Below, piece by piece: positions 32,712-36,368 of a DNA stretch of 50,873 bases. Under the pieces are notes generated by a model. That model was not told the DNA's origin and searched no databases. It was given only the letters and a program-made list of their open reading frames with translations. The stretch is from a virus. The stretch is taken from IMG/VR virus record IMGVR_UViG_3300033148_005005, positions 1 to 50,873 of that record, one strand, 5' to 3'. The position numbers and the translations under genes were made by a program. Every line of letters begins with the position of its first letter. Position 1 is the stretch's first letter.

Positions 32712-33569
32712 TTAAATAATATCTTTTTCGTCTTCTTTAACAACCACGCCATCGATAACGTCGTCATCGTCATCAAGAATAGCCGATGTTGCCCTTGTTT
32801 TTTTATCAGGTGATGCGGGGGCTTTTTCTACTTCTGCTACTGGTTGCTGCTGATTGACATTGGATTTAATATCAAACTGCTCATCACTTGCAGCAAGTAC
32901 AGAATCAAGATCAGCACTTGAAGGAAGACGATTACACAATCGACGAAGGACGGTTTTAATTGCCATTTCGTCATACCATGTTTTCCAGATACCTTTCGGA
33001 TTTCCGTTGTCATCTGATCCTGATTTACTGACTTTTCTAACCTGTTCAATTTTGGCTTTTGACATAACCTGAAGCTGGATAGATCCGTCTTTTAGTTTAG
33101 CGACAGCATAAGCTAAACGAAAATCACCAGGATCATCAATGTTTGGTTTGTGTTTTATTGAAGGTTCAAGACCAAGCTCATATTCAAAGTCATCCTTAGT
33201 GTAAACAGCATAAGCATTGATGCTTCCAATTTCACCACTGTTGCGCGCTTTCTTTAAAAGCCCATTAACCATTGGCATGTATTGGACTTTCTTAATCCAC
33301 TTGTTACCGACCTTGCTATTAAACATGACCAGTGCTGATTCACGATCATCAATAACAAGACCATCAGTAGCCGCTCTTTGACAAGCCATGAATAATGACT
33401 TGCGATCAACAGTGTCGCCAGCAAGATCAGGATTGTTTTGAATGGCAGCTGATGCTGTTCTGATAAATTTATCCACATTAATATGTGGCGGTAGAACCTG
33501 CGCTAGTTGTGGCTTCATTTGGTCTAAGCCAGTGATCAGTGTTTTCATTGGTGATAGTTGTTGTGACAT
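32712..33569 (-). CDS. recT: RecT-family single-strand annealing protein
   Basis: A 285-residue protein that anneals complementary single strands during phage recombination, working with the exonuclease encoded two genes upstream. Family features visible: an N-terminal helix with VDKFIRTASAAIQNNPDL, the core QYMPMVNGLLKKARNSGEIGSINAYAVY, DDFEYELGLEPSIKHKP, and a KTWYDEMAIKTVLRRLCNRLP helix. The C-terminal 60 residues are acidic and disordered, ending DEKDII. Length is normal. Operon order exonuclease, DUF1351, RecT is a common phage arrangement. Confidence 0.95.
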   Translation of the reverse strand: MSQQLSPMKTLITGLDQMKPQLAQVLPPHINVDKFIRTASAAIQNNPDLAGDTVDRKSLFMACQRAATDGLVIDDRESALVMFNSKVGNKWIKKVQYMPMVNGLLKKARNSGEIGSINAYAVYTKDDFEYELGLEPSIKHKPNIDDPGDFRLAYAVAKLKDGSIQLQVMSKAKIEQVRKVSKSGSDDNGNPKGIWKTWYDEMAIKTVLRRLCNRLPSSADLDSVLAASDEQFDIKSNVNQQQPVAEVEKAPASPDKKTRATSAILDDDDDVIDGVVVKEDEKDII

Positions 33570-33586: not shown

Positions 33587-34591
33587 TTATTGTTTATTTA
33601 CATACGAGTTAACAAGGTTTATTTCAACAAGGCTCGTGATACCAGCTTCTTCCATAACTTCTTTAAGTTTATTTACTATTTGTTCTGGTTTCACATTCGG
33701 TAGCGCCATCACTTCAAATCTTGCCTGGATAACGTGCAGTGTTTTACCTTCAGGTGGTTGTTGTGTTATGGCTGGCTCTTTATTCTCATCAACTTCATTC
33801 ATCATATCAGCAATTGCTTCAGGTACAATGTCTGGATTAGCAGCTGGATTAGTTGTCACTGGCGTTTCTTTTTTAACTTCAGCCCTTGTTTTTTCTTCAG
33901 CAACTTCTTGACGATTAACTTCTGACTTAAGCAGTGACTCTAAATTTTTATCATAGACCTCATCATCTGCCATTAAGAATGCTGCAATATGGATTCTTTC
34001 AAGCGGCGCTTTTAATCCAGCTTTGTAACTTGCGTTCTCAAGTTTTAATAATCGAGTAGCCACCATATTCTGAGTATTGATATTTTCCATCACACGCATA
34101 TCAATTGCTGATGTTGCTTTTCCTGCTAATTTTCCGGTTGCTGTTCTGTTGCCAAGAATAACAAGATCATCAATGGTTGACGTTCTGTATTCGCTTTCAA
34201 CCTGACTTGCGTCATACTTTTCATGAAGGTAATTAAGCAGCATGATTTTAATATCTGCTTTTGTTTTATCTTCAAACACCTTGATTTGTTTGGTTAGTTT
34301 TTCACGACCATCTTGGCACAGCGTAACTAACGATTTTATTTTTTCATCGAAAGCTTTTATAGGTACTGATATCAACGCTACTTCTTCTTTTCGTTTGGCG
34401 TTAATATTGTTAGCTATGGCGTTTAATTCTGTTGATAATTTCTTGCAGTCTTTAAGCGTGTCTTCAGTAACAACAACGTCATACTTCTTAAGCTCTGACT
34501 TAAGGTGTTTTTCAACCACATCAAAATTTGCTGTTAGTACAAGTGGCTTTGATGTAACTACTAATTCTTTATTTTCCGTGTCTTTTTTCAT
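33587..34591 (-). CDS. DUF1351 family protein
   Basis: A 334-residue protein. The N-terminal 200 residues match the DUF1351 layout of phage recombination operons: strands near residue 16 (LVLTANFDVVEKHL), a long coiled coil (DCKKLSTELNAIANNINAKRKEE; IKAFDEKIKSLVTLCQDGREKLTKQIKVFEDK), then KYDASQVES. Residues about 225-275 form a proline/glutamate-rich linker. A C-terminal ferredoxin-like part has HVIQARFEVMALPNVKPEQIV. Biochemical role is unknown, but the family is repeatedly found between YqaJ and RecT. It overlaps the exonuclease stop by four bases. Confidence 0.85.
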   Translation of the reverse strand: MKKDTENKELVVTSKPLVLTANFDVVEKHLKSELKKYDVVVTEDTLKDCKKLSTELNAIANNINAKRKEEVALISVPIKAFDEKIKSLVTLCQDGREKLTKQIKVFEDKTKADIKIMLLNYLHEKYDASQVESEYRTSTIDDLVILGNRTATGKLAGKATSAIDMRVMENINTQNMVATRLLKLENASYKAGLKAPLERIHIAAFLMADDEVYDKNLESLLKSEVNRQEVAEEKTRAEVKKETPVTTNPAANPDIVPEAIADMMNEVDENKEPAITQQPPEGKTLHVIQARFEVMALPNVKPEQIVNKLKEVMEEAGITSLVEINLVNSYVNKQ

Positions 34592-35664
34592 AATACAAAA
34601 TCCTCTTCTTTAATTTCTGTTGTTGGTTGCGCTACTGGTAATGCTTCAGTTTCTTTTTCCGGTTTCTTTTTAAACGCTCTGAAGTAACGATAAGATTCTT
34701 TGCCGCCAATCTCAGTACCAACCATCTCTGTTGTGATCAGCGTTGGTGCTGATGGTTTTGTCATCATGCAGGAAACAGTAATGTCACCACACGTTAGTTT
34801 CTTTGCGTTGCCTTTTACTTCTTGTAAAATCCTAGCTTTAACAGCTGTCCTTAAATCAGTAACATCTTTATATTGCATCGACAGATCGTAATACTGTTCA
34901 ACCAATGGTTTGATAACATCGTCATCACTGACATCAACGACCCACTGATTAGCGTCACCGTATAAACGAATAATAAAATCAGCATCCGTTTCAAAGTCTG
35001 GTTCTGGTGGGTTGTTTTCAGTGATTGATAACCAGAATGAAGTTATCTTTTTACGCATGGCAGCGCCAACTTTTTTGTTACGATAGCGAATAATATATTT
35101 CATATCATTGCCTGATATCAGTGGCGCAATAATTCCCCATGATCTATTTTTAACTTCAAGCTGCAATTGCAACTGAGCCTCAATATGTGGTGGGGCTTCG
35201 TCTTCTTCCCAAGTGTCACGATAAACGAGAAAATCAACATTTTTAATTTCAAGAATACCTGGGCCATTTTTTAAATATTCTCGTTGAGCATCGGTTCTTG
35301 CTTCTTCAGGTGTGCAGCATAATTTTTTACCATCTTCATCAACAATACCAACAATTTCATAATCAAATGAAGCAGCCATTCCTTTGCAGGAATCATGACG
35401 GCAATATGTTTTTAATCTCCTTACTTTTAATCCGAGATCTTCACCAATGCCTTGAGCGATTGAATCTTCTAATCGTTTACCCCATGTCATGCGATTGTTT
35501 TCATCCAGCCGGATAATTTCACCTTTCTTTTTTTCGTGCCACACCTGATAAGGTGTTGAGTAAGGTGAGATATTAAACAGTGCTGATATTTCTGTACTGC
35601 TAATGTCTTCAGTTTTTAATTGAAGCCAGTGTTCTTCTGATTCAGGGTTGATAATTATTGGCAT
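34588..35664 (-). CDS. YqaJ-type viral recombinase exonuclease
   Basis: A 358-residue nuclease expected to resect DNA ends for RecT. YqaJ/lambda-exo core motifs: ISSTEISALFNISPYSTP near residue 22, TWGKRLEDSIA near 60, the metal-binding GILEIKNVD near 135 and the E-A-Q-L-Q-L-Q-L helix near 161. The usual linear-end recognition helix (MRKKITSFWLSI) follows. The C-terminal 90 residues are helical and proline-rich. The start codon directly follows the stop of the small upstream gene, with GAGGAAAAG as the ribosome site. Confidence 0.9.
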   Translation of the reverse strand: MPIIINPESEEHWLQLKTEDISSTEISALFNISPYSTPYQVWHEKKKGEIIRLDENNRMTWGKRLEDSIAQGIGEDLGLKVRRLKTYCRHDSCKGMAASFDYEIVGIVDEDGKKLCCTPEEARTDAQREYLKNGPGILEIKNVDFLVYRDTWEEDEAPPHIEAQLQLQLEVKNRSWGIIAPLISGNDMKYIIRYRNKKVGAAMRKKITSFWLSITENNPPEPDFETDADFIIRLYGDANQWVVDVSDDDVIKPLVEQYYDLSMQYKDVTDLRTAVKARILQEVKGNAKKLTCGDITVSCMMTKPSAPTLITTEMVGTEIGGKESYRYFRAFKKKPEKETEALPVAQPTTEIKEEDFVL

Positions 35665-35841
35665 TTACTTTTCCTCTTTAAATCGGATATCAATATCAGG
35701 AACAATATACCCGCTCTCTCTGTCATGCCTGTATGATGCCAATATCCGTTCGATATTATTTTTTTTGTTATCGTCCAATGCATCCAGAATAACTTTTACA
35801 GCATTGCCAAGTTCTTCTGTTTTACCGCTCTCTAATTCCAT
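35665..35841 (-). CDS. Small hypothetical protein heading the recombination operon
   Basis: A 58-residue helical protein. I use the ATG at 35841 with CGGAG upstream; a longer frame would run into the tRNA-like RNA. Sequence starts MELESGKTEELGNAVKVILD and contains HDRESGYIVPDIDIRFKEE. It ends immediately before the exonuclease start. Function unknown; it may be a partner of the exonuclease. Confidence 0.62.
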   Translation of the reverse strand: MELESGKTEELGNAVKVILDALDDNKKNNIERILASYRHDRESGYIVPDIDIRFKEEK

Positions 35842-35861: not shown

Positions 35862-36009
35862 TGGTGGTCATGGCAGGACTCGAACCTGCACTTGAATTCA
35901 AAAGGTCTTATGGATTGGTTACCGCCTTCATAGTTTCAAGATATCGGTTGGTAAACCAACCTCATGCGTTTGCCAATGATGGTACTCTCATCAATTCCGC
36001 CACCTGACC
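35862..36009 (-). ncRNA. tRNA-Leu-like leader RNA with insertions (no clear anticodon)
   Basis: The 148-nt minus-strand RNA has intact tRNA ends: acceptor arms GGTCAGG/CATGACC pair at six of seven positions, then A and CCA. The T arm is GCAGG-TTCGAGT-CCTGC. Position 8-9 is TG, and the D stem is GCG/CGC with leucine-type AATTGG. The D loop, however, carries an 18-nt extra piece folding as TGATG/CATCA. The anticodon region is replaced by about 70 nt with two competing helices, GGTTGG/CCAACC and TTGGTT(T)ACC/GGTAACCAA. No seven-base anticodon loop is evident. It starts about four bases downstream of the expected start site of a strong leftward promoter. It may be a decayed tRNA, a tRNA mimic or a regulatory leader. 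Confidence 0.6.
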
Positions 36010-36013
36010 AATG

Positions 36014-36027
36014 TGTATATTTATACA
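36014..36027. promoter_or_regulatory. Operator: TGTATA-N2-TATACA palindrome
   Basis: TGTATATTTATACA covers the -10 box of the leftward promoter for the tRNA-like RNA and recombination operon. It is the same motif that overlaps the two other leftward promoters of this genome. It lies beside the start of the helix-turn-helix gene at 36087, a candidate binder. Confidence 0.6.
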
Positions 36028-36048
36028 GGTGTGTTGAGAAAATGTCAA
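36020..36048 (-). promoter_or_regulatory. Strong leftward sigma-70 promoter for the tRNA-like RNA and recombination operon
   Basis: On the minus strand: TTGACA (36048-36043), a 17-base spacer, then TATAAA (36025-36020). The expected start near 36013 is only a few bases before the tRNA-like RNA. The -10 box is inside the operator palindrome. Confidence 0.75.
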
Positions 36049-36062: not shown

Positions 36063-36086
36063 TGGTTCTCGAATTAGGAGGTGAAC

Positions 36087-36368
36087 GTGGAAAACGATAA
36101 AGACACATGCCCTGAATGCGGCTCAGATCTCACTGAGATCAATCGTGACGGGGTTTCGCCAGCAAAGATGGTAATTGATGCATTCGGTGACATTAAGAAG
36201 CTATCTGAAGCCACTGGCATTGATAAGACAGCAATATATCGCTGGACTTACCCGAAAGATAAGCATGGCAGCAATGGCAGAATCCCGTCAAGCCAGCAAT
36301 CTAAAATACTAAAGGCAGCAAAAAGCCTTGGCATTAAACTGAAACCAGAACAATTGGTGGATGTATGA
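36087..36368 (+). CDS. Regulator with short zinc knuckle and carph-isopro/Cro-like helix-turn-helix
   Basis: A 93-residue protein. I choose the GTG at 36087, five bases after AGGAGG, over the GTG overlapping that site. Residues 6-12 hold a C-P-E-C-G pair. From about residue 25 the chain reads as a helix-turn-helix: KMVIDAFGDIKKLSEATGID, then TAIYRW, a loop and IPSSQQSKILKAAKSLGIKL. This pattern is typical of short phage and prophage DNA-binding proteins. It adjoins a TGTATA operator and divergent promoters, so it is the leading candidate to bind that operator. Confidence 0.75.
   Translation: MENDKDTCPECGSDLTEINRDGVSPAKMVIDAFGDIKKLSEATGIDKTAIYRWTYPKDKHGSNGRIPSSQQSKILKAAKSLGIKLKPEQLVDV

Follow-up and report, generated by a model that had tools for sequence, protein, structure and literature searches.

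An Anticodon-Less tRNA-Leu-Like RNA at the Head of a Viral Recombination Operon, with Similar tRNA Shells in Other Viral Contigs

RESULTS

A tRNA-Leu body ahead of an exonuclease/RecT operon

What kind of RNA is encoded where the body of a tRNA-Leu stands at the start of a protein operon and lacks an anticodon? The question is raised by a locus in the window analyzed here, that is, the whole stretch of 50,873 nucleotides of the IMG/VR virus record IMGVR_UViG_3300033148_005005. An earlier note on this DNA had described a leader RNA with a hairpin in its D loop and no clear anticodon, and had proposed a tRNA mimic, a structural switch, or a decaying tRNA. The locus contains the following features.

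35862..36009, minus strand: tRNA-Leu-like RNA without an anticodon, encoded CCA included (Rfam tRNA, 27.7 bits; no ARAGORN call)
36003..36009, minus strand: acceptor 5' strand GGTCAGG (6 of 7 pairs with 35866-35872)
35998..36000, minus strand: D stem 5' strand GCG (pairs with CGC at 35966-35968)
35977..35993, minus strand: inserted D-loop hairpin TGATG-AGAGTAC-CATCA (fold, -3.5 kcal/mol)
35966..35968, minus strand: D stem 3' strand CGC (Rfam alignment and fold)
35890..35965, minus strand: 76-nt insert in place of the anticodon and variable arms, its final base being U48
35946..35961, minus strand: predicted insert hairpin 1, GGTTGG-TTTA-CCAACC
35891..35940, minus strand: predicted insert hairpin 2, closing stem CTTGAA/TTCAAG
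35873..35889, minus strand: T arm GCAGG-TTCGAGT-CCTGC (T stem, 5 of 5 pairs)
35866..35872, minus strand: acceptor 3' strand CATGACC (sequence and Rfam alignment)
35862..35865, minus strand: discriminator A73 and encoded CCA
36020..36048, minus strand: sigma-70-type promoter TTGACA-17-TATAAA (by eye, 11 of 12 consensus bases; also in L006)
35665..35841, minus strand: leading operon ORF, ~58 aa; Shine-Dalgarno sequence GGAG at 35851-35848 (no Pfam match)
34588..35664, minus strand: YqaJ-type exonuclease (Pfam PF09588; E, 4e-19)
32712..33569, minus strand: RecT single-strand annealing protein, same operon (Pfam PF03837; E, 2e-37)
36081..36368, plus strand: divergent Cro-like regulator (Pfam P22_Cro; E, 1e-5, under the curated cutoff)

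The element is 148 nt long and runs from G1 at 36009 to the A of CCA at 35862, with the layout GGTCAGG-TG-GCG-[D loop with hairpin]-CGC-[76 nt]-GCAGG-TTCGAGT-CCTGC-CATGACC-A-CCA. The coordinates, acceptor pairing (6/7), T arm, U8, D stem, and CCA given in the earlier note were borne out. The single mismatch in the acceptor (GGTCAGG/CATGACC) is G.A, and all of the core positions that were checked (U8, A14, A15-U48, G18G19, T loop, A73, and CCA) are intact. The D-loop hairpin is present as described but is weak, with 5 bp. In a covariance-model check, the Rfam tRNA model aligns to the element end to end (E, 6e-4); the score of 27.7 bits is slightly below the gathering cutoff of 29 bits. In a strict scan for an acceptor plus T arm, the element was the sole site in the window, and there were no sites in 20 block-shuffled windows; a chance match was rejected on this result and the Rfam E value. 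ARAGORN at default settings called no tRNA at the element with intron mode on or off, and an Rfam scan of the window matched no known family besides tRNA. A tmRNA identity was also rejected, since neither ARAGORN nor Rfam gave a tmRNA match in the window.

The promoter lies within a few bases of the element, as had been claimed. Its boxes, read by eye, are near consensus (TTGACA at 36048-36043 and TATAAA at 36025-36020, with a 17-nt spacer), and the last base of the -10 box, 36020, lies 10 nt upstream of G1. A consensus scanner omitted this promoter because it requires a T at the last -10 position. Given the usual spacing of a transcription start from the -10 box, the transcript would begin 3 to 5 nt before the tRNA body. 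Pfam matches to YqaJ and RecT downstream on the minus strand confirmed that the element leads an exonuclease/RecT operon, which comprises the ~58-aa ORF, the YqaJ exonuclease, a DUF1351 protein, and RecT; no terminator-like site was found between the element and the first gene. The 3' acceptor strand contains an ATG in the reading frame of the 58-aa ORF, but a better ribosome-binding site precedes the ATG at 35841. The divergent Cro-like gene (36081-36368, plus strand) has a CPECG motif ahead, which resembles half a zinc ribbon.

In L006, the closest relative, with an exonuclease of 71% identity, an identical promoter sequence is followed by other sequence, which indicates that the element is a separable module. 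A normal 85-nt tRNA-Leu in homologous phages had been named as evidence against the original reading; L006, which retains the promoter, carries no tRNA at this position. None of 159 exonuclease/RecT loci has a comparable leader, an exact T-arm/acceptor search of viral contigs gave no match, and no close homologue of the element or its insert was found in the locus, viral-contig, and class searches. Burkholderia phage BcepMigl (L003, 1654-1741) carries a normal tRNA-Ser near a related YqaJ/RecT pair, on the opposite strand.

Folding of the insert and the search for an anticodon

The region said to fold in two ways, put at about 70 nt in the earlier note, measures 76 nt, and both pairings recur in the predictions. 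When the tRNA arms are imposed, two hairpins (GGTTGG/CCAACC and CTTGAA/TTCAAG) arise in the insert at the places expected for the anticodon and variable arms, and local hairpins are the best fold of the insert. The distal pairing TTGGTT..AACCAA is part of the unconstrained minimum free energy (MFE) structure, in which the tRNA arms are not formed. Since little separates the two folds in energy (-40.0 kcal/mol unconstrained versus -39.1 kcal/mol with the arms forced), the energies leave the choice between them unsettled. Compared with dinucleotide shuffles, the insert alone has a z of -2.4; the whole element RNA has a z of only -1.1, overall no better than shuffles.

The statement that there is no clear anticodon also held, as no canonical anticodon arm was found in the window insert, either in line or displaced. 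Across the class of elements described below, canonical arms (5 bp, 7 nt) occur in 16 of 134 inserts, compared with 14.9 ± 3.3 in shuffles, and canonical Leu anticodon arms occur once, compared with 2.7 in shuffles. Intron-mode identities are of mixed amino acids, with 22 Leu versus 16 when the inserts are shuffled. Hidden introns and displaced anticodon arms in the Leu scaffold were thus rejected as not exceeding shuffles. Faint traces of a split Leu anticodon arm persist in the window copy; only 33 of 4,000 shuffles equal them, and they suggest descent from a tRNA-Leu that insertions disrupted. Two viral elements (L324 and L350) depart from the rule, their anticodon loop being clearly interrupted. 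Together with four elements from genomes (L369, L371, L413, and L386), they are tRNA-Leu genes whose anticodon loop holds a short hairpin insert and whose anticodon stem and variable arm are intact; these inserts are intron-like and too short for group I introns.

Anticodon-less tRNA-Leu shells in viral contigs

A first scan, for a Leu D arm and a T loop too far apart in viral contigs, yielded 82 stretches, and a second pattern, in which only D-arm and T-loop letters were fixed and the acceptor was left free, yielded at least 120. A scan of genome contigs gave 61 stretches, some of them assembly gaps or ordinary tRNAs; the clean ones are largely from Bacteroidota. The class was defined by a Leu D arm (GGCGGAATTG..ACGC), a paired acceptor, a T arm, U48, and an insert of 45 to 140 nt without an anticodon, and the window element belongs to it by its D-arm/T-loop pattern, U48, and 76-nt insert. 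The two viral scans gave 138 curated shells, those of the second scan being from the matches listed. This set was filtered on acceptor and T-stem pairing, and so only unfiltered features were counted from it.

Although the acceptor was unconstrained in the second scan, 99 of its 116 distinct sequences among the matches listed have a perfect 7-bp acceptor, whereas none of them reaches 7/7 at six shifted registers. These 116 sequences, among the matches listed, contain 38 different acceptor sequences, and 110 of them have a perfect T stem. Among the curated shells from the matches listed, base 48, a position not fixed by the pattern, is U in 134 of 138, and the discriminator is A73 in 108 of 138. 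A U at base 48 is the partner expected for A15 in the Levitt pair. ARAGORN called no normal tRNA in the viral shells that were kept. Rfam 15 has no family for such shells, and Rfam searches of ten class loci returned only tRNA and one unrelated freshwater-1 RNA; the latter (RF02979; L241, 10301-10363) lies among tRNAs and three anticodon-less shells. A literature search, with subscription journals and bioRxiv mostly outside its scope, returned no description of such a class, and a prior description is possible; such phage tRNA-like RNAs appear to be undescribed.

Inserts and genomic setting

The class inserts have a median length of 65 nt (range, 48 to 137) and modest stability (mean z, -0.7). 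Most have no partner in the set (99 singletons), several families are present, and the window insert has no homologue among the others. In one family (L292, L261, L329, and L355), a second insert helix shows compensatory changes at 6 of 8 pairs with every cell paired, and sliding the partners by 1 to 3 columns lowers the pairing to 33 to 49%. Two insert families were sought in isolate phages without a match. D-loop hairpins at the same site as in the window occur in L318, L231/L174, L224, and L241, and the insert-family sisters of L318 lack them. Three to five elements with different inserts are found on single contigs (e.g., L316, L241, L309, and L345).

Only 4 of 170 elements overlap an ORF of >150 aa (ORFs in these counts are mechanical predictions). 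The strand is shared with the downstream ORF in 113 of 126 elements, compared with 166 of 212 normal tRNAs from the same loci; 43 of the 113 and 37 of the 166, respectively, lie ≤60 nt upstream of the co-oriented ORF. The genes downstream are very varied, and 54 of 138 elements, among the matches listed, have a tRNA gene within 1 kb. A hairpin of the form GACAGC-..-GGAAAGAC-..-GC, the stems of which appear by eye to covary, recurs and ends a few bases before the element (L193, L243, L258, L271, L282, L304, L311, L316, and L337). Among the viral contigs, L189 has 45 predicted tRNAs and L184 has 32, and ARAGORN predicts a permuted tmRNA with the tag ANADTYDFSAMSFTGNTVANDSRFALAA in L169, L175, and L176.

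A second scaffold with G15

Long inserts also occur in another scaffold (TAGCTCAG..AGAGC; within L424-L543), represented by 75 elements, of which 71 have C at base 48 and 69 have G at base 46. In both scaffolds, position 15 was set by the search patterns and position 48 was not; A15/U48 versus G15/C48 is, at the level of sequence, co-variation of a predicted tertiary contact between the two scaffolds. Anticodon-stem positions of the G15 scaffold pair above expectation (mean, 3.19 of 5 versus 1.90), and U33 is not conserved. In six of its members (L429, L437, L454, L498, L505, and L511), the anticodon arm looks normal and lies 5 nt ahead of the T stem, and the insert separates it from the D arm.

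DISCUSSION

A proposed non-decoding RNA on a tRNA scaffold

With a probability of roughly 0.55, we propose that the window encodes a non-decoding RNA on a tRNA scaffold, which would be processed as a tRNA, be stable, and carry a structured payload. The tRNA core, the missing anticodon, and the position of the element are present in the sequence, and the architecture is common and maintained in viral contigs; we infer processing, stability, function, and selection on the window copy. RNase P, RNase Z, the CCA enzyme, and LeuRS read the tRNA parts that are kept here, the ribosome reads the part that is lost, and the anticodon is not needed by Escherichia coli LeuRS. This pattern of retention and loss favors a processed, stable, non-decoding payload RNA. 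The suggestion of a tRNA mimic is supported by the intact arms read by tRNA-processing enzymes and the absence of an anticodon arm, in line or displaced. By virtue of the retained tRNA-Leu core (acceptor, D arm, T arm, and elbow contacts), the transcript would fold and be handled as a tRNA, with the structured insert taking the place of the anticodon and variable arms. Transcribed from the early promoter, the element would form the opening 148 nt of the YqaJ/RecT transcript; most likely, RNase P would remove the leader of 3 to 5 nt, and an RNase Z/E-type cut at the encoded CCA would release the RNA from the mRNA ~20 nt ahead of the first start codon. The product would be a stable tRNA-like RNA with the insert as its working part. 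Our leading guess is that the insert may bind or decoy a host factor, such as a tRNA-directed defense enzyme, and fast-changing inserts would fit a conflict with the host; the payload might otherwise be a regulator or a protein-binding module.

Several features of the window copy could instead be those of a decaying tRNA-Leu, that is, a phage-acquired gene that received insertions in its D loop and anticodon loop and is now a relic in the leader: the G.A acceptor mismatch, the weak D-loop hairpin, the lack of a homologue in related phages, and the degenerate Leu anticodon-stem arrangement that so few shuffles matched. We consider decay unlikely, because the similar viral shells, unlike relics, keep acceptor pairing, U48, and insert helices, and because the checked core positions of the window copy are all intact and its insert folds better than shuffles. 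The decaying tRNA of the earlier note is therefore improbable for the class, and less clearly so for the window copy, since no close relative carries the element. More than 100 viral shells with differing structured inserts look like a widespread kind of phage RNA rather than broken tRNAs.

It is quite improbable that the element acts chiefly in cis, as a switch or processing signal that controls how stable the mRNA of the recombination operon is or how well it is translated, either by alternative folds or by an mRNA 5' end made by RNase P/Z. Such a role would suit its place at the very start of the operon, the near equality of the two folds, and the larger share of elements than of normal tRNAs close to a co-oriented ORF; however, the downstream genes are very varied, many elements lie within 1 kb of tRNA genes, and a pure cis signal needs no such diversity of structured inserts. 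The structural switch of the earlier note, taken by itself, gains no weight in either direction from two folds so close in energy and an insert that has no homologues in which covariation could show. An intron-like insert in the anticodon loop, the removal of which would give a working tRNA-Leu, has parallels in L324, L350, and a few bacterial elements with a good anticodon stem, variable arm, and loop hairpin insert, and TGAGG/CCTTT in the window could form a poor anticodon stem around TT..TAAGA. That stem has only 4 of 5 pairs, including one G-U, there is no group I intron match, ARAGORN intron mode is negative at the default threshold, and the D-loop insert would stay after removal, all of which makes the intron highly improbable.

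For the class as a whole, we tentatively suggest, as a possibility with slightly less than even odds, that phages hold a large undescribed class of tRNA-scaffold RNAs with Leu and at least one other core, varied payloads replacing the anticodon arm, and several members per genome, which would be matured by the host and may serve as a delivery scaffold for counterdefense or regulatory RNA domains. As tRNA finders depend on an anticodon, phage annotation misses such shells. Should the shells be produced and matured, tRNA bodies would serve viruses as vehicles for other RNA domains.

Comparison with known systems

The window RNA shares the acceptor, D arm, T arm, A73, A15-U48, and CCA with tRNA-Leu (RF00005, long variable arm), and it differs in having no anticodon arm, no recognizable variable arm, a D loop enlarged by a hairpin, and a length of 148 nt versus ~85 nt. 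In tmRNA (SsrA), an anticodon-less tRNA-like domain is likewise joined to other structure; tmRNA, however, is of the alanine type, with a tag reading frame, several pseudoknots, and 300 to 400 nt, none of which is seen in the window RNA. Phage tRNAs that evade tRNA-targeting defenses are complete and able to decode (PMC10264068, PMC11555353). They resemble the window RNA as phage-borne tRNA bodies with a possible tie to tRNA-attacking host enzymes, whereas the window RNA cannot decode. The nearest precedent of the class is the pair of phage small RNAs in the T4 tRNA cluster, species 1 RNA (rnaC, 139 nt) and species 2 RNA (rnaD, 119 nt), which were validated by Northern blotting and reported to be of unknown function (PMC9697503). 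Like the window RNA, rnaC, which the Rfam tRNA model does not match, carries a canonical T arm close to the 3' end. It has no Leu D arm and, compared by eye only, a poor acceptor, and it lies in a tRNA cluster, whereas the window RNA combines a complete Leu core with a place at the head of a protein operon. If the RNAs of the proposed class are made and matured, the role of these two stable T4 RNAs would become a live question again, and the class would provide a search handle for new antidefense or regulatory RNAs.
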